A stretch of DNA of 64,000 nucleotides from Candidatus Gastranaerophilales bacterium. Lineage in GTDB: Bacteria; Cyanobacteriota; Vampirovibrionia; Gastranaerophilales; Gastranaerophilaceae. The stretch is taken from the NCBI GenBank assembly GCA_944325895.1, contig CALVCA010000007.1:1-64000 (forward strand). Direction: 5' to 3'. This document shows positions 2,081 to 30,364 of this stretch, one piece after another. The notes under the pieces were generated by a model, which saw nothing but the letters and a program-made list of their open reading frames with translations, was not told the DNA's origin and did no database searches. The position numbers and the translations under genes are program-made. The number at the start of each line of letters is the position of its first letter. The stretch's first letter is position 1.

Positions 2081-2791
2081 ATGGAAAAGGTTATTACAAA
2101 AGCGGTTCAGCAAGTCGCCCTCCCGACTTTGGCTCCAGGTTTTATTTTTAGACAATTTATTCATTTACGTTTCTATAATAAAATCTTTAAATTTAAACCC
2201 GCTTTTACTCTCGCTGAAGTCTTGATTACTTTAGGTATTATCGGTGTTGTAGCTGCTTTAACTATTCCTAATTTGATTACAAATTACAAAAAACATACTG
2301 TAGAAACAAGACTTATAAGATTTTATACCACGATGAATCAGGCTTTAAAAATGTCCATAGCAGAAAACGGACAGTTATCCTTTCATCAGGTCTATCAAGG
2401 AGATAGTGCTTATTTAACCGAATGGTACAGGAAATATATTATCAAATACATAAAAACCATAAAAGAAGAAGGACCTGAAGCAAACAACAATTACTACAAA
2501 GTAACTTTTATAGATGGCAGCGGGTTTGCCAGCTATTATGGCGGTCAAAGTGCTGATGGTACATCAGGTTTAGGTAACATAAATATATTTTATTATATAA
2601 ACGGTAATAGTCGTATTCGGCTACCTGATGGTAAAGATTCATTTTTCTTTGTTTTAGATATAAAAAACGCAAAAATAGATACATGGGGATCTAAATCACA
2701 ATGTAGATCAACTACTGATGGTTTAGGATGTGCAGGCTGGATTAAACGAAACGGCTGGAAAATTCCTGAAGACTATCCAATTAAATTTTAA
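2081..2791 (+). CDS. Type IV pilin-like/pseudopilin protein
   Basis: A 236-residue protein with a class III (prepilin peptidase) signal. KPA is followed by FTLAEVLITLGIIGVVAALTIP, spelled here only in part, which gives a conserved glutamate at mature position 5 and a hydrophobic helix. Cleavage before Phe is expected. The start at 2081 is chosen because GGAGG lies eight bases upstream; the frame is open further 5' but has no ribosome binding site there. The leader is unusually long (about 45 residues before the cleavage site, with a hydrophobic stretch). The C-terminal part has two cysteines (SQCRSTTDGLGC) and ends with a GWKIPEDYP motif very like the pilin at 20128. Which pilus or secretion system it serves is unknown. 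Confidence 0.7.
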   Translation: MEKVITKAVQQVALPTLAPGFIFRQFIHLRFYNKIFKFKPAFTLAEVLITLGIIGVVAALTIPNLITNYKKHTVETRLIRFYTTMNQALKMSIAENGQLSFHQVYQGDSAYLTEWYRKYIIKYIKTIKEEGPEANNNYYKVTFIDGSGFASYYGGQSADGTSGLGNINIFYYINGNSRIRLPDGKDSFFFVLDIKNAKIDTWGSKSQCRSTTDGLGCAGWIKRNGWKIPEDYPIKF

Positions 2792-3281: not shown

Positions 3282-5438
3282 TCAAGGTTTTAATAAATAT
3301 TTGAGATCTTGTTTATTGAGTTTTCTAGGATTGTTATTTAATCTTTCTATATTAACGGCATTAATAATATCGTCAATATTTATAATTTGTTTTTTTACAA
3401 GATTTATATCCAAACCTATATCATTAAATAATTTGCGGAAATATTCTTCAGCATCGTTAAATCCTAAAATTTCATATACTTCTTTTACTTTTTCTAAGGC
3501 AAAAGCAGCACCTCGGTAGTCCTGAGAATTATTATCATTTATTTGGCTGTTTAATTTTGTTAATTTCGCAATTGTAACTGCACAAGCTATGCCATGAGGA
3601 ATTTTATATTCACTTGTCATTTTATAAGACAGTGCATGAGAGGCTGTTGTACGTGAAATATTTATTGCTTTGCCTGCCAAATTTGACGCAACAGACATTT
3701 TTTCAGCTATAGCAGGATTTTCAGAGTTTATATATTCGACAATATTGTCTTTTATTAATAACATTGCTTTTTTTGCATAATATCTGCTTATAGGTGTTGA
3801 TTGAACTGCCCAAAAACTTTCTATTGCCTGACAAAAGGCATCCATTACAGTACAAATTTTTAAATCTTTAGGATTTTTTTCTATAAATTGACTGTCAACT
3901 ATTGCATATTCAGGTAAAATATTTTTTTGATCTAGAGAATATTTTTTGCCGTCTTGATAGTAAACTGCAAATTGAGTCGCTTCTGAACCTGTTCCGCATG
4001 TGGTAGGTATTGCTATTAATGTTTTTATTCCGGTTTTATATTTATATACTTTTGCAAAATCGATAACACTGCCGCCGCCTATTGCAATTATTAAATCATT
4101 TTTATGACGGATTTTGTTTATAGCTTGTTCAATTTCTTCTATCTTCGGGTTTGTGGAAAAATTATTGTAATATTCAAAATTATAGCCGTTTAATTCTTTT
4201 TCTATATGCCCTTTTATAGCATCATAGGATTTTTTACCGGTAAAAACTAAAATATTTTTTGGGTTTTCAATTTTTAATATTTTTGATAAATTTGTTATTG
4301 TTCCTCGTTTAACAAATTCAATTTGGTTTAAGTTCTGCATAAAGATTTTTTTATTTTCCCAAGGTTTTTCTTTCGGTCGTCCTAAATCTTTTCTTGCCCC
4401 GCATTTAACTTTTATTTCTAACAGGCAAGTGCATTTATTGTTTATAAATTCCGATAAAATACTCTCTAATTCATCTTTATTTTTTACGGAATAAGTTTTT
4501 TGATATCCTGAATTTAAAACGAGTTTATCAATTTGAGCATTATTAACGGCGGTTGGTTGTGAACCTACAGAATCGTGAGCTTCATTGTTAAAGACAATAT
4601 GTTTGAAATTGGTTAATTTTTTTGAGGCATTAACAATAATAGCACCTTGATGCATTAGAAAAGCTCCATCTCCGTCAAAGCAGTATATATTTCTGTCAGA
4701 TTTTTCTAATGCTATGCCAAGTGCTATTGAGCTTGAGTGTCCCATTGAACCGACTGTCAAAAAATCTTGTTGGTGTGATTGCCCGAGCTGTTCTCTTATT
4801 TCATAAACTTCTCTTGATATATGACCTGTAGTTGATACGATTATATCTTTAATATCTAAATGTTTAATTACGCATTTAATAGCTTCTTCCCGGCTTAATT
4901 CATAATTATTATAATTTTTAAATTCATATTTTTCAAATAAACCTTTTTTAATAATAAAAGCAAAAGGTTTATTTGTTTCTTTCATGTAATTGAAAGCTTT
5001 TGTAATAAGAGGTTTTGCTTTTTCAAATTGTTCGGGCAATATTTCATATTGTATTCCAAGAGTATCCAATAATTTGTCGGTAAGTTTGCCTTGCTTTATA
5101 TGCTGCGGTTCATCTTTTACTCCAGGCTCACCACGCCAGCCGATAATCATTAATAACGGAATATTATATACTTCTTCGTCTGTTAAAGATAATAAAGGGT
5201 TTACGCAGTTACCTATACCGGAATTTTGCATGTATACTACAGCCGGATTGCCGGTCGCTAAATAATGACCTGCCGCTAACGCAATGGCATTACCTTCATT
5301 GGCGGTTATAGTGTGTTCTTTGTTTGTGGTATGTTCTGTAATATAAGCACAAAAGTCTTTTAATAAACTGTCAGGAACTCCGCAGAAACAATTTACATTA
5401 TTTTCTTTTAATATATTAAAAAAATCTTGTACTTTCAT
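3282..5438 (-). CDS. Phosphonopyruvate decarboxylase-phosphonoacetaldehyde reductase fusion
   Basis: A 718-residue fusion. Residues 1 to about 360 are a ThDP-dependent phosphonopyruvate decarboxylase: a substrate-side ANEGNAIALAAGH motif early on and the cofactor motif GDGAF...FNNEAHDS later. Residues from about 385 are an iron-type (group III) alcohol dehydrogenase with GGGSVIDFAK for NAD and a metal-site region ending in KIPHGIACAV. Together they should convert phosphonopyruvate to phosphonoacetaldehyde and reduce it to 2-hydroxyethylphosphonate without releasing the unstable aldehyde. The start used (5438) overlaps the upstream stop codon as TAATG, implying translational coupling; the 16 extra upstream codons have no ribosome binding site. 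The corresponding steps are separate enzymes (Fom2 and FomC) in fosfomycin producers. Confidence 0.85.
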   Translation of the reverse strand: MKVQDFFNILKENNVNCFCGVPDSLLKDFCAYITEHTTNKEHTITANEGNAIALAAGHYLATGNPAVVYMQNSGIGNCVNPLLSLTDEEVYNIPLLMIIGWRGEPGVKDEPQHIKQGKLTDKLLDTLGIQYEILPEQFEKAKPLITKAFNYMKETNKPFAFIIKKGLFEKYEFKNYNNYELSREEAIKCVIKHLDIKDIIVSTTGHISREVYEIREQLGQSHQQDFLTVGSMGHSSSIALGIALEKSDRNIYCFDGDGAFLMHQGAIIVNASKKLTNFKHIVFNNEAHDSVGSQPTAVNNAQIDKLVLNSGYQKTYSVKNKDELESILSEFINNKCTCLLEIKVKCGARKDLGRPKEKPWENKKIFMQNLNQIEFVKRGTITNLSKILKIENPKNILVFTGKKSYDAIKGHIEKELNGYNFEYYNNFSTNPKIEEIEQAINKIRHKNDLIIAIGGGSVIDFAKVYKYKTGIKTLIAIPTTCGTGSEATQFAVYYQDGKKYSLDQKNILPEYAIVDSQFIEKNPKDLKICTVMDAFCQAIESFWAVQSTPISRYYAKKAMLLIKDNIVEYINSENPAIAEKMSVASNLAGKAINISRTTASHALSYKMTSEYKIPHGIACAVTIAKLTKLNSQINDNNSQDYRGAAFALEKVKEVYEILGFNDAEEYFRKLFNDIGLDINLVKKQIINIDDIINAVNIERLNNNPRKLNKQDLKYLLKP

Positions 5439-6754
5439 TATTTTGCTCCGGGAATTAAAGTTATTATATCTTTTATTTTCATACAATATTCATCTGATGC
5501 TTCTTTGCATCTATGATTTTTTAAGATAGATTTTGCAGTATTTACCATTGCAGGATAAGCAGCTCTTAAAAGATGGTTCGCATAAATTACAACATTGATA
5601 TTGTTTTCAATTAATTCCTGTTCTTTTACCTGATCATATGAAGATGGTACAACAACTAATGGTTTCCGATTTGGTAATTGATTATACATAGCTGCGAATT
5701 CTTTAATTTCATCAAAAGTTTTTTGGCGTGAATGAATCATAATTCCGTCTACACCTGCATCAAGGTATGTTTTTGCTCTTGAAATAGCATCTTGCATTCC
5801 TTGTTCTAAAATTAAGCTTTCGATTCTTGCAATTATCATAAAGTCATCACCTACTTGAGCTTGTTTGCCGGCTTTAATTTTTAATGCAAAGTCTTGTGGT
5901 GAATCTTGTTCCTGAAAAACATCTGTTCCAAATAGAGAATTTTTCTTTAAGCCAACTTTATCTTCAATAATAATTGCTGATACCCCTAGTCTTTCAAGCG
6001 TTTTTACGGTAAAGATAAAATGTTCTTGAGGACCTCCGTTATCGCCGTCATAAATAATAGGTTTTGTTGTAACTTCTAAAATATCGTTTAAAGTTTCCAT
6101 TCTGGATGTTGTGTCTAAATATCCTATATCAGGTTTTCCTTTTGCTGCCGATTGCGTTAATGAAGATATCCAAATCCCGTCAAACTCTACTGTTTTATTA
6201 TCTTCAACTATATTTGTATGTTCTACTATTAATCCGGACAAACCGTTATGGGCTTCACAAATGGTTACAAGATTTTTTGAATTCAATAGTCGTCTTAATC
6301 GGTGGCATCTTACTTCAGGAGTTGTTCCTATTTCTTTGAGAACTTTATTTAATTTTGTCGACGATATGCCTTCTGTATAAGGAACATCAATAACTTTGCC
6401 GCCCCATTGGTTCATTGTTTCTATAACTCGTTGTCTTGTTTGTGCTTGAACTCCTGTTTTCCAATCATCACCGTGTAAAACATAATCAGGTTTTATTTTT
6501 ATTAAATTTGGAACATAATCCAAAGTTTCTTGCGGAACAACTTTTGTCACTCCTTTAACATTTTCTATTATAATTTTTCGTTGTTCCCAATTCATATAAG
6601 GAAGACGTTTGTAGCTTGCAATAGCTTTATCGGTTAATAATCCTATAATCAGTTCATCATCTTTTTCTATTAATTTTCTTGCTTCGTTGATAATATTTAA
6701 ATGTCCCGGATGTAATAAATCTGCACTCATTCCGATATATATTTTTTTTGTCAT
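5438..6754 (-). CDS. pepM: Bifunctional phosphonate cytidylyltransferase-phosphoenolpyruvate mutase
   Basis: A 438-residue, two-domain enzyme. Residues 1 to about 140 form a cytidylyltransferase domain with the LHPGH motif and a distal EGISSTKL motif. The remainder is phosphoenolpyruvate mutase with the diagnostic [10 protein letters not shown] loop (EDKx5NS), which separates true mutases from isocitrate lyase-like relatives. The mutase makes phosphonopyruvate, the entry to almost all C-P bond synthesis; the first domain should load a finished phosphonate onto CMP. The same domain order occurs in Fom1 of fosfomycin producers, whose cytidylyltransferase acts on 2-hydroxyethylphosphonate. The next gene supplies the two intermediate steps. 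No transaminase for 2-aminoethylphosphonate is seen. Confidence 0.9.
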
Positions 6755-10494: not shown

Positions 10495-11076
10495 TTAAAT
10501 TTTTATTAGACTACCGGCTTTTAAAAAACTGTTTTCTTTAACGATAACTCCCTGCACAATCGTTGCGGAGCTTCCGACAAAGCTGTTTTGTTTGACTGTT
10601 ACATTGCCGTTTAATATTGCCCCGGTTGATATGTGGCAGTTATCTTCAACAATAGAATCATGTTCTATGAGAGCTTTTGAATTTATAATACAGTTACACC
10701 CGATTTTAACGACAGCGTTTATTTCAGCCCCGTGCATAACTATTGTCCCTTCACCGATTTCACTGTATTTTGAAACATATGCATGCGGCGAAATTACTGT
10801 TGCAATGTTTGCATTGAGTTTTTTTAATATATTAAAAAGTTCTATCCTTTTAAATGGTGATTGGATTTGACCTAATGTTATCAGAAAATAGTTATCATTT
10901 GATATATAGTTTTTGATATTATCATCGCAGTCAATAATTTTATACCCTAAAATGTTCGATCCTATTTTTTCTTTTAAATCAATAAGCCCTAAAATATTAT
11001 ATTGTTTTGTTGATTCAATGACATCAATACATGATTTGGCATGACCGCCTGCACCTATAAGTATTAAATTTTTCAT
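10495..11076 (-). CDS. legH: LegH/PglD-type sugar N-acetyltransferase
   Basis: A 193-residue NeuD/PglD/LegH-family acyltransferase. The N-terminal Rossmann-like half begins NLILIGAGGHAKSCIDVI, and the C-terminal half is a left-handed beta-helix of hexapeptide repeats (IGCNCIINSKALIEHD, GNVTVKQNSFVGSSATI). PglD-like enzymes acetylate the 4-amino group of NDP-4-amino-4,6-dideoxy-GlcNAc. The partner aminotransferase, LegC, is directly upstream and its stop overlaps this start as ATGA. The 54-base gap to legI downstream carries the legI promoter. Confidence 0.82.
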   Translation of the reverse strand: MKNLILIGAGGHAKSCIDVIESTKQYNILGLIDLKEKIGSNILGYKIIDCDDNIKNYISNDNYFLITLGQIQSPFKRIELFNILKKLNANIATVISPHAYVSKYSEIGEGTIVMHGAEINAVVKIGCNCIINSKALIEHDSIVEDNCHISTGAILNGNVTVKQNSFVGSSATIVQGVIVKENSFLKAGSLIKI

Positions 11077-12170
11077 AACCTGACTCCGCTTGGGATGTTG
11101 ACAATTCGTTCTTCAAGCCATTTAGCGTTTGTTAAATCGCCGCAGGTGCAGTTTTTATACATATCAAGTTCATTCATCAGTGTCCAAATAGGTCTTGTCA
11201 TTACCCCGTTATCATTTGTGTATGTCAAAAATTCATCACGTTCTTTTTTATTTTCACATTTTATGGCTTGCAGCCAATAGTTTGATTTACAATTTTCAGG
11301 TTCGGATACAAATCTGTCTTTGAAATAATTTTTGTAAATTTCAGCCAATTCTCTTTTGTTGGCAAGAATTTTGTCGATTTTTTCAAGTTGTGCAAGCCCT
11401 AATGCTGCATTCAAATTAGGCATTCTGTAATTATACCCGACTGCATCATGTCTAAATTCCCACCTGTGCGGAATTTTAGCCTGTGTTGAAAGGTGTTTGG
11501 CACGGTCGGCGAGTTTTTCGTCATTAAACAGAAGCATCCCGCCGCCTCCGGTTGTAATTGTTTTGTTACCGTTAAAACTCATTGCGGCTGATTGCCCCCA
11601 GTTGCCTGTATGAATACCTTTATAGAAACTTCCGATACTTTCTGCACAATCTTCAATCAGAATAACCCCATGCCGGTCGGATACTTCCTTAATCTCATCT
11701 ATTCTGCAAGGATGACCGAATGTGTGCATCGGAACGACAGCTTTTATGTCTTTGTTTTTTTTCAAAAAATCATCTAATTTTTCAGGACTCAAGCCCATTG
11801 TATCTTTGTCAACATCAACAAAAACAGGTTCTGCCCCGCAATATTTAATTGCGTTTGCCGTTGCAATAAAGGTCAGAGGCTGTGTAACAACTTTATCCCC
11901 CGGTTTTATTCCGGCAATAATCATGCATAAATGCAGTGCGTTTGTACCGTTAACGCAAGCAACAGCTCTTTTTACACCGCAAAATTCTGCAATTTTGTTT
12001 TCAAAATCCACAACAAATTGCCCGACACTTGAAACAAATGTTGATTTAATACATTCTGTAGTAAGTTCAATTTCACGGTTGTCGAAATAAGGCGGATGAA
12101 GAGGCAATACTTCCGCTCTAAAAACATTTTTTATAAATTCAACATCTTGCTTAAACATTTGCGACATCAT
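11073..12170 (-). CDS. legC: LegC-type PLP-dependent aminotransferase
   Basis: A 365-residue DegT/DnrJ/EryC1-family sugar aminotransferase. SFNGNKTITTGGGG carries the PLP lysine, and VVPMHTFGHPC and LIEDCAESIG are the usual cofactor-side motifs. It should aminate the 4-keto sugar made by LegB. The ATG at 12170 has GGAG about eight bases upstream. A nearby feature matters for expression: if the G tract in the upstream amidotransferase gene lost one base, that frame would read about 20 bases into legC and stop at 12151, changing how the two genes are coupled. Confidence 0.88.
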   Translation of the reverse strand: MMSQMFKQDVEFIKNVFRAEVLPLHPPYFDNREIELTTECIKSTFVSSVGQFVVDFENKIAEFCGVKRAVACVNGTNALHLCMIIAGIKPGDKVVTQPLTFIATANAIKYCGAEPVFVDVDKDTMGLSPEKLDDFLKKNKDIKAVVPMHTFGHPCRIDEIKEVSDRHGVILIEDCAESIGSFYKGIHTGNWGQSAAMSFNGNKTITTGGGGMLLFNDEKLADRAKHLSTQAKIPHRWEFRHDAVGYNYRMPNLNAALGLAQLEKIDKILANKRELAEIYKNYFKDRFVSEPENCKSNYWLQAIKCENKKERDEFLTYTNDNGVMTRPIWTLMNELDMYKNCTCGDLTNAKWLEERIVNIPSGVRL

Positions 12171-12184
12171 ATTTTAATCTCCAT

Positions 12185-13291
12185 TTATACGCATGCGGCA
12201 AGGGGGGGGGTGAGTATCTGAGCCGCTTCGAACAAGTCTTTGTTATAAAATTTGTCAATAATCGCCCAAAATTCTTCTTCTGTATAGCCGCAAAATTCGC
12301 AAAAATCTCTGACGCTCAGCGGGTCTAAAAATGCGTCGTGGTGTTTTACAAGTTCTACAGCTTCTTCACGTGTAATCATGCCGTATCGTACCATTCTTGC
12401 GGCATAGTCAGTTGCAAACTGGTGTCCGAATTTTGGATATTTTAACCATGAATGTACAAGGTATGCTCTTGAATCAACCTGATCAAAATCTTCTACATGA
12501 TGTTGTCTTCTCCATTCATCACTTAAATCCTTGAAACCTAAACTTTTAGCAATCTCAAGATTTGTAAAACTGTTCCAAGGGATAAAGTATGAAACGTAAA
12601 TAGGATCTATTTCATCCAAATCTTTATCACTTAAAGAATTTGTTAAATACAATTCATGTTTTGAGACACCTGTTTCTCGGATTATTTCATCTATGTCCAT
12701 ATCAGAGGCAACACCGTTTTTAAGAATTCCTCTTGCACTGTAGGTGTCATTGTCATCACTGCCGCCGTATTCATAGCTTACATTTTCTCCGTAAACCAAT
12801 AACGGTGTATTAAATTTTTTAGCCATCATCAAAGGATATGTATAAATTAATCTATCGATATACCAGGTCGGTTTGCCAAATTTTTCAAAGGTATAACGCA
12901 TAATTTTCTTTTGTGCTCTGATATTTGGTTTTAAACTTATTAATTCACAGCCAAAAGCTTCTGAAATATTTCTTAAATTATGTTTTCCGGCCTCTGTCAT
13001 AGGAAAATTATCTTCTACTGTAAAGAGTATGGGATTCATTTTCAATTTATTTTTAAATAAGTCGACCTGATAATGCGAATCTTTTCCGCCGGAAACAGCT
13101 ATGGCACAATCCCATCCGTCACCGTTCATTCCTCTGTATTTGTCACACAGAGCTTCTAATTCTTTATATCGTTTGTCCCAGTCTATTGTTTTTCTTTTTT
13201 CATATGCCTGACAAGCAGAACAAATACCTTCTTCGTTAAAACTAATTCCCGGTCTTGTATCCGGCATAACACATTTTTTACAAAATTTCAT
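12185..13291 (-). CDS. N-acetyl sugar amidotransferase (PseA/WbpG family), possibly phase-variable 3' end
   Basis: A 368-residue amidotransferase. The four N-terminal cysteines (FCKKCVMP and ICSACQAYE) form a zinc-binding cluster. IAVSGGKDSHYQ is the PP-loop of ATP-pyrophosphatases. Family members (PseA, WbpG) convert an N-acetyl group of a nonulosonic acid or diamino sugar to an acetamidino group, usually with glutaminase partners encoded elsewhere; none is seen here. The last codons cross a run of nine C (coding strand; 12202-12210), giving the tail ILTPPLAACV. With eight C the frame would continue to a longer tail containing YKWRLKYDV, which looks more like a normal C-terminus. The gene precedes legC with a 14-base gap. 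Confidence 0.85.
   Translation of the reverse strand: MKFCKKCVMPDTRPGISFNEEGICSACQAYEKRKTIDWDKRYKELEALCDKYRGMNGDGWDCAIAVSGGKDSHYQVDLFKNKLKMNPILFTVEDNFPMTEAGKHNLRNISEAFGCELISLKPNIRAQKKIMRYTFEKFGKPTWYIDRLIYTYPLMMAKKFNTPLLVYGENVSYEYGGSDDNDTYSARGILKNGVASDMDIDEIIRETGVSKHELYLTNSLSDKDLDEIDPIYVSYFIPWNSFTNLEIAKSLGFKDLSDEWRRQHHVEDFDQVDSRAYLVHSWLKYPKFGHQFATDYAARMVRYGMITREEAVELVKHHDAFLDPLSVRDFCEFCGYTEEEFWAIIDKFYNKDLFEAAQILTPPLAACV
12202..12210. repeat. G9/C9 homopolymer tract
   Basis: Nine consecutive G on the plus strand, striking in an AT-rich sequence, at the 3' end of the amidotransferase gene. The three possible lengths (modulo 3) give three different C-termini with stops at different distances from legC. 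Such tracts drive phase variation in surface-glycan genes of other bacteria. Confidence 0.8.
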
Positions 13292-13299
13292 ATAACCTC

Positions 13300-14289
13300 T
13301 TATACATTATAAATATCTGCTTTATATTTCTTTAAATTATCTTTGTTACTGAACCATCTAACGGTTTCTTCAAGTCCTCGTCTTATATCGTATTCCGGTT
13401 TGAAATTAGTTAATGTCATAATTTTTGAATTATCACACCACAGGCGGTTTACTTCGGAATTTTTTGGTCTGAGTCTTTGTTTATCCGTTACAAATTCAAC
13501 ATCACTGTTCATAATTTCTTTAATCAGGTTTAAAGTATCACCGATTGAAATTTCAAAGTTTGATCCTATATTTATTTCTTCACCTATTGCCTTATCGCAA
13601 TTTGCAAGAGCTACAAATCCTGAACAGGTATCTTTTACATAGTTAAAATCTCTTGTCGGAGTTGTATCGCCGAGTTTAATTTGTTTTTTACCTGCGGCAA
13701 TTTGTGTAATTATGGTCGGAATAACTGCCCTTGCGGATTGTCTTGGACCGTAAGTATTGAAAGGTCTTGCAATTATAACCGGCAAATCAAATGCATTGTT
13801 AAAACTTTTTGCAATTGCATCAGCACCGATTTTGGTTGCTGAATACGGTGATTGCGGCTGTTTAGGGTGTTTTTCATCAATCGGAACATATTGAGCCGTT
13901 CCGTAAACTTCGCTGGTGGATGTGATAATAACTTTTTCAACATTATTATCAAGTGCTGCCTGACAAACATTCAAGGTACCTTTAATATTGGTATCCACAT
14001 AACTTTCAGGAGCAATATATGAATAAGGAATTGCGATTAATGCCGCAAGGTGAAAAATTATATCAACATCTTTTGAAATATGTCTTATGTAATTGTTATC
14101 CCTTACATCTCCGCAAAGAACTTCAATATCGTTTTTGCATTCCACATCTTCAAGCCATCCCCAGTTGTTAAAAGAATTATACTGAGATAAAGCCTTAACT
14201 TTAGCACCTTCTTTTACTAATCTTTCGGTTAAATGTGATCCGATAAATCCGTCTGCACCTGTTATTAATACTTTTTTGTTTCTTAACAT
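13300..14289 (-). CDS. legB: LegB-type NAD-dependent NDP-sugar 4,6-dehydratase
   Basis: A 329-residue extended short-chain dehydrogenase. KVLITGADGFIGSHL is the dinucleotide-binding glycine motif, TSTSEVYG carries the active-site threonine/serine region, and YSATKIGAD holds the catalytic Tyr-x3-Lys. RPFNTYGPRQSARAVIP is typical of LegB and related dehydratases. It should convert GDP- or UDP-GlcNAc to the 4-keto-6-deoxy sugar that LegC aminates. It has an AAAGGATAAAT ribosome binding site and lies five bases after the DUF115/Maf-like gene, so it is in the same operon. Confidence 0.88.
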   Translation of the reverse strand: MLRNKKVLITGADGFIGSHLTERLVKEGAKVKALSQYNSFNNWGWLEDVECKNDIEVLCGDVRDNNYIRHISKDVDIIFHLAALIAIPYSYIAPESYVDTNIKGTLNVCQAALDNNVEKVIITSTSEVYGTAQYVPIDEKHPKQPQSPYSATKIGADAIAKSFNNAFDLPVIIARPFNTYGPRQSARAVIPTIITQIAAGKKQIKLGDTTPTRDFNYVKDTCSGFVALANCDKAIGEEINIGSNFEISIGDTLNLIKEIMNSDVEFVTDKQRLRPKNSEVNRLWCDNSKIMTLTNFKPEYDIRRGLEETVRWFSNKDNLKKYKADIYNV

Positions 14290-30309: not shown

Positions 30310-30364
30310 TTCTTAACTCCTTTTTCTTTTTATTAAATATTATTTTACACTTTTTGTCAATTAT

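Follow-up and report, generated by a model that had tools for sequence, protein, structure and literature searches.

The phase-variable genes of Neisseria include some that affect pili. Large sets of repeat-controlled surface genes make up the phase-variable repertoire of this genus, as described in two reports (PMC5084427, PMC5953494). In Campylobacter, surface and flagellar glycan genes act as contingency loci through G/C homopolymers, and legionaminic-acid glycans are cited among the phase-variable products (PMC8355987). Similar to the present case is the C-terminal phase variation of Helicobacter canadensis, in which G10-14 tracts near the 3′ end of genes exchange the last residues of the product, length variation was shown at the level of reads, and one of the genes concerned is rfbB, a sugar-nucleotide epimerase/dehydratase gene (PMC2823697).

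The locus described here lies in a 64,000-nt stretch of DNA from a Candidatus Gastranaerophilales bacterium (the window), and it resembles H. canadensis in having, close to the 3′ terminus of a gene, a G/C homopolymer whose length exchanges the last residues, and Campylobacter in the occurrence of G/C homopolymers within the AT-rich DNA of a gut bacterium. Unlike the H. canadensis tracts, the run is a C9 known from one assembled length and can be traced to prepilin leaders. In contrast to Campylobacter, such tracts stand here mainly in prepilin leaders, and the sampled Campylobacter amidotransferase homologues end in the native tail. The difference from Neisseria is that pilin structural genes are concerned, tens per genome, each with a run that follows the start codon and precedes the cleavage site.

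The run, G9 on the plus strand at 12202-12210 and thus C9 in the coding direction, is located within the 3′ end of wbuX (12185-13291, minus strand), which encodes an N-acetyl sugar amidotransferase of 368 amino acids at this length. The first-pass annotation had called a nine-G run very unusual in AT-rich DNA, and for the window (32% G+C) this was borne out, since no other C/G run longer than six bases occurs there; a search with a seven-base run pattern gave three overlapping matches, each from the wbuX run, vs. 0.84 expected from shuffled sequences. The run belongs to the G/C homopolymers of about eight bases or more that exceed chance expectation within an open reading frame, and a change in its length would lead to alternative frames and products. 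Computed translations at C9 gave a protein ending in ILTPPLAACV with a stop ending at 12185. At C8 or C11 the product has 379/380 amino acids and the tail ...PLPHAYKWRLKYDVANV (for C8 also written ...YKWRLKYDVANV), with a stop ending at 12151, i.e., 20 bases within legC, which starts at 12170. At C7 or C10 the tail is ...CRMRINGD and the stop ends at 12174. All three tails had been predicted in the first reading of this DNA, including the native-looking YKWRLKYDV terminus at one base fewer and its overlap with legC, and our translations agree with each of them.

WbuX scored 347.9 bits against TIGR03573 (cut-off 203.2), with residues 1-345 aligned to positions 1-343 of the 344-position model, so that the assignment to the WbuX/PseA-type family rests on the whole model. 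The SGGKDS ATP-pyrophosphatase loop (S67-S72) and cysteines C4, C7, C24, and C27 were invariant in an alignment of 14 sequences, and the closest solved structure by sequence was PDB 8wex_A (E=3.6e-30). The run is placed downstream of the conserved core (residues 1-345), which it leaves unaltered, and affects only the last ~13-25 residues. It is in this part that the relatives carry a common tail, G-x-W/F-x-L and the residues following it, a trait of the relatives that stands outside the TIGR03573 definition; its G-x-W/F motif was seen again in homologues as distant as 33% identity, and the tail is absent from the assembled C9 protein. A 96% identical homologue from another genus (G032, the same record as L120) ends in DIFEKQPNGKWRLKYDVANV / FEKQPNGKWRLKYDVANV and an 88% identical one (L121) in ELFEKQKNGKWKLRYDVKDF / FEKQKNGKWKLRYDVKDF, both without the tract. 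The family tail, KWRLKYDVANV, is regained in WbuX at C8 or C11; in the C8 state most of the native tail is back, behind a 13-residue insert replacing KQPNG. AlphaFold predicted a beta-hairpin for the native end (strands 354-356 and 362-364) with modest confidence (pLDDT of about 60-70), and disorder for the C9 tail (pLDDT < 50 at 352-368). Because the tract-less homologues end in the C8-type tail, the assembled C9 length is, as judged by this comparison, the non-native one.

The wbuX gene sits between genes for a legB-type NAD-dependent 4,6-dehydratase (13300-14289, minus strand; TIGR04180, 525 bits, cut-off 475) and a legC-type aminotransferase (11073-12170, minus strand; TIGR04181, 501.9 bits, cut-off 420), with NeuD-, NeuB-, and NeuC-type genes farther along. 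While LegB and LegC are above their cut-offs, the synthase of the cluster scores as NeuB_NnaB (505.5 vs. 399.65) and the epimerase as NeuC_NnaA. The sugar made by the cluster is probably of the legionaminic or neuraminic type, and it is the neighboring genes that point to a legionaminic product. At 3282-6754 (minus strand) a fusion of PEP mutase with a cytidylyltransferase-like domain lies beside a 734-AA open reading frame that reads like a phosphonopyruvate decarboxylase combined with an alcohol dehydrogenase. Together they would make up a phosphonate branch adjoining the sugar genes.

Comparison at the DNA level with the 96% identical homologue showed that a segment of about 40 nt, GCGGCTCAGATACTCA-C9-TTGCCGCATGCGTAT (12187-12226, minus strand), has taken the place of a native stretch of about 15 nt, AAACAACCCAATGGC. 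This replacement nets +25 nt and so shifts the frame of wbuX by one base. The 18 nt immediately 5′ of the run, AAGCGGCTCAGATACTCA (12211-12228, minus strand), share homology with motifs in the prepilin leaders of this genus: 16 of 18 positions match, at the same place, the leaders of the sister species G002 and G006, a score that random positions reach about five times per million. The best leader match, in G009, agrees in 17/18 positions, or 25/26 with the run, and reads MKTNTTKAVQILTPPP...AFTLAEVLITL. A search of 383 genomes of the family for the motif followed by eight C (up to 3 mismatches) gave matches in 11, all belonging to the genus of the window, and a reversed-motif control gave no matches in the same 383 genomes; an intact prepilin open reading frame followed the motif in 26 of the 30 loci read. 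An exact DNA scan of genome contigs for the leader motif of the genome itself, with own and near genomes excluded, returned nothing.

Judged by these comparisons, the wbuX run is a recent insertion from a prepilin leader and not an old feature of the amidotransferase. An old phase-variation tract of legionaminic genes was rejected, as the homologues are tract-less and the insert matches prepilin leaders. A tract carried within a long mobile element was not supported, since the pilin homology spans ~27 nt only and native sequence returns within ~40 nt; we also found no phage match for the WbuX protein. A chance run was rejected because similar runs recur genome-wide. The gene itself is present in 7 of the 383 family genomes and in no further genome of the window's genus, and wherever its 3′ end was read elsewhere it had no tract. 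As wbuX is rare and the leader motif is limited to the genus, wbuX would have come from outside the genus and then gained a genus-specific leader tract. Short gene conversion or template switching may account for the capture step.

Across the whole genome such runs are common, and the one in wbuX is not unique. The 1.69-Mb assembly (G000; 47 contigs, 99.8% complete, AT-rich) contains 37 C/G runs of eight bases or more, 33 of which precede a PF07963 match, read in the same direction, by 36-550 bp, where about 3% would be expected. The remaining four comprise two at contig ends, the run of C41, and the wbuX run, which is the outlier. PF07963 matches in this genome number 66, all over the cut-off. 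Pilin numbers and tract numbers rise together across family genomes: prepilin/tract counts were 66/36 in G000, 76/72 in G002, 62/48 in G010, and 69/115 in G024, against 9/0 and 15/0 in the tract-less G020 and G040. In G000, 34 of the 37 runs have C on the plus strand of the contig, despite the random orientation expected of draft contigs; so strong a strand bias is absent from other genomes of the genus.

The tracts occur in long translated leaders of tens of prepilin genes per genome (G000; L006-L061, L167-L206, L241-L270). The C-type runs encode ..KAVQIVAPPP or ..ADKIVAPPP and the G-type runs ..NGGGASLLGR or ..GGGRLAQS; the leaders end in A or G before FTLAE, and the distance from run to FTLAE is 13-187 codons, repeat-filled in many of them. 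In 33 unselected leaders (3576 codons) we counted 6 stops in the pilin frame vs. 438 and 253 in the other two, so the leader region is translated in that frame. The six stops fall two each in the near-identical L036, L037, and L044, and 30 of the 33 leaders are stop-free, for which reason we rejected the alternative that the leader is an untranslated 5′ UTR of short prepilins. These three prepilins, with G9 in AGGGGGGGGG context and two leader-frame stops, represent a different arrangement class. The leaders of L009, L047, and L048 contain 100-190 codons of repeats (TRHSERSEESLNEILRLKPQGATHV, AFTLAEGATHVGMFDKNRRAAFTLAE) open in the pilin frame, and leader types are swapped among similar bodies. 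In L006 (G000:C1:11388) a G10 prepilin is in frame, MRISYRGGGASK...GFTLAEMMVVMLV, and its body runs on into NTAIGYTALQNNTSG repeats resembling trimeric adhesin heads.

The comparison of run lengths covered paralogues and species representatives. Among 117 tract-pilin loci, which do not count as independent samples, 18 have the start codon in the pilin frame, 73 lack one base, and 26 lack two (or have one too many). The assembled run length thus puts the start codon out of the pilin frame in 99 loci (~85%). Of the C-type loci, 45 lack one base, 2 lack two, and 4 are in frame; for the G-type loci the numbers are 28, 24 (one too many), and 14. Neither tract length nor register is constant among paralogues whose bodies are ~82% identical. 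Since similar bodies vary in this way and carry either C-type or G-type leaders, leaders and bodies are exchanged. Outside the pilins, L095 (G017) has a G12 in frame inside a membrane-acyltransferase-like gene, which may make it a second contingency locus of this family beyond the pilins.

Two prepilins with interrupted runs are found in the window itself. The one at 2081-2263 (plus strand; MEKVITKAVQQVALPTLAPGF...KPAFTLAEVLITLGIIGVV), recognized by the leader motif and a PF07963 score just above the cut-off, has the same motif with a shorter interrupted run, CCCTCCC, and leads in frame straight into FTLAE; we read it as a putative locked-ON relative. The other (30310-29836, minus strand; leader MKTIEIKADKIVPLLKLK, closed by a stop, with the interrupted run CCCCCTCC) stands in the OFF register, and its start is cut off from FTLAEVLITL by a further frameshift within the leader, the second one. 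We read it as a locked-off, decaying relative.

The reading that we favor, and to which we give an even chance of being correct, is that a slippage-prone contingency tract from prepilin leaders of the genus was copied into a horizontally acquired wbuX and toggles its C-terminus. In prepilins, where it would have arisen, the run lies behind the start codon and ahead of the FTLAE cleavage/methylation motif. To judge from the motif, prepilin peptidase should cut the leader off and the products should assemble into pili, so that gain or loss of a base in the leader would turn each pilin cleanly ON or OFF. With about 18 nt of leader the run would then have been copied into the 3′ end of wbuX. Here C8 and C11 would give the KWRLKYDVANV tail and the expected active form, and C9, C7, and C10 foreign tails, with stops predicted to fall before or at the legC start. 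By analogy with Campylobacter and H. canadensis, DNA slippage is the most likely working principle, and run lengths would vary in living populations. As in H. canadensis (PMC2823697), the wbuX run would act as a C-terminal switch, not necessarily an ON/OFF one. We infer that the tail has a bearing on the activity of WbuX and that the cluster makes a derivative of legionaminic acid; yet C9 WbuX might be fully active, with the TIGR03573 core intact and only the last ~13 of 368 residues altered. The first-pass proposal of phase-variable legionaminic-acid modification, modeled on Campylobacter surface loci, therefore stands in part: the run alters the C-terminus, C8 restores the family tail, and the genome is rich in surface-gene runs, but the tract is a recent insertion from a prepilin leader, and the main home of such tracts is the pilin repertoire.

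The main weakness of the slippage reading is the uniformity of the C-class, in which 43 of 44 off-by-one loci over many species have exactly C9, more than frequent random switching would lead one to expect. Because the C-type runs are so uniform, there is room for slippage at the RNA level, in which C9 or G9-G13 runs would make RNA polymerase or the ribosome slip at a fixed rate, the DNA staying unchanged and the pilins and the native WbuX tail being minor products. That C-class leaders need exactly one extra C in 45 of 51 cases, across more than ten species, speaks for such recoding, as do the interrupted runs of L068 and L085, which keep the off-by-one register with the pilin frame open downstream. 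It would be hard to reconcile under a single rule, however, with leader classes that need different shifts (+1 in the C-class and most of the G002 G-class, -1 in the G-class of G000 and G024), with truly in-frame lengths in every class, and with the decay of the interrupted copy at 30310, and we consider it improbable.

Another alternative, to which we give a minor but real share of belief, is that the piece of leader reached the end of wbuX by chance recombination and has been inert since, the tail being tolerated or the gene decaying and the run not switching. This would fit a tract that is present in this wbuX copy alone and falls beyond the conserved core, with pilin homology as short as ~27 nt and 15 nt 3′ of the run that have no other exact match in the genome. 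Against it, the run has stayed an uninterrupted C9, with the length typical of the genus and one base from the native tail, and the interrupted copies elsewhere indicate that such purity is not automatic. The possibility that the run length or the insertion is a metagenome artefact is very slight. Homopolymers are prone to error, and in this 47-contig draft contigs often end near such repeats (C11 starts with a run); but the foreign segment of ~40 nt with its native flanks is shorter than ordinary reads, the sequence on both sides runs smoothly into a 91%-identical relative, and these runs also turn up in genomes that were assembled independently.

The prepilin-leader tract system is larger than the wbuX finding, and we found no description of it. 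In the literature searched there was no published account of pilin structural genes each carrying a leader run and none joining Gastranaerophilales with phase variation; for Gastranaerophilales/Vampirovibrionia and pili, no title or abstract concerned phase-variable pilins. A termite-gut genome paper reports ordinary type IV pilus genes (PMC5877343).

The wider proposal, that genomes of the Gastranaerophilaceae hold tens of phase-variable type IV pilin-like genes, mostly OFF, and that their leader tract is portable, passing between pilin bodies and captured in one case by wbuX as a new C-terminal switch, seems to us equally balanced between right and wrong. Were it true, a gut lineage that is uncultured would owe the variation of its pili to a large set of contingency loci. 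The leader of a prepilin ends at the prepilin peptidase site; a switch placed in this cut-off leader would therefore leave no mark on the mature pilin. The wbuX locus would then show a route by which switches spread, a ~27-nt tract having passed from one family of genes into a foreign glycan gene.
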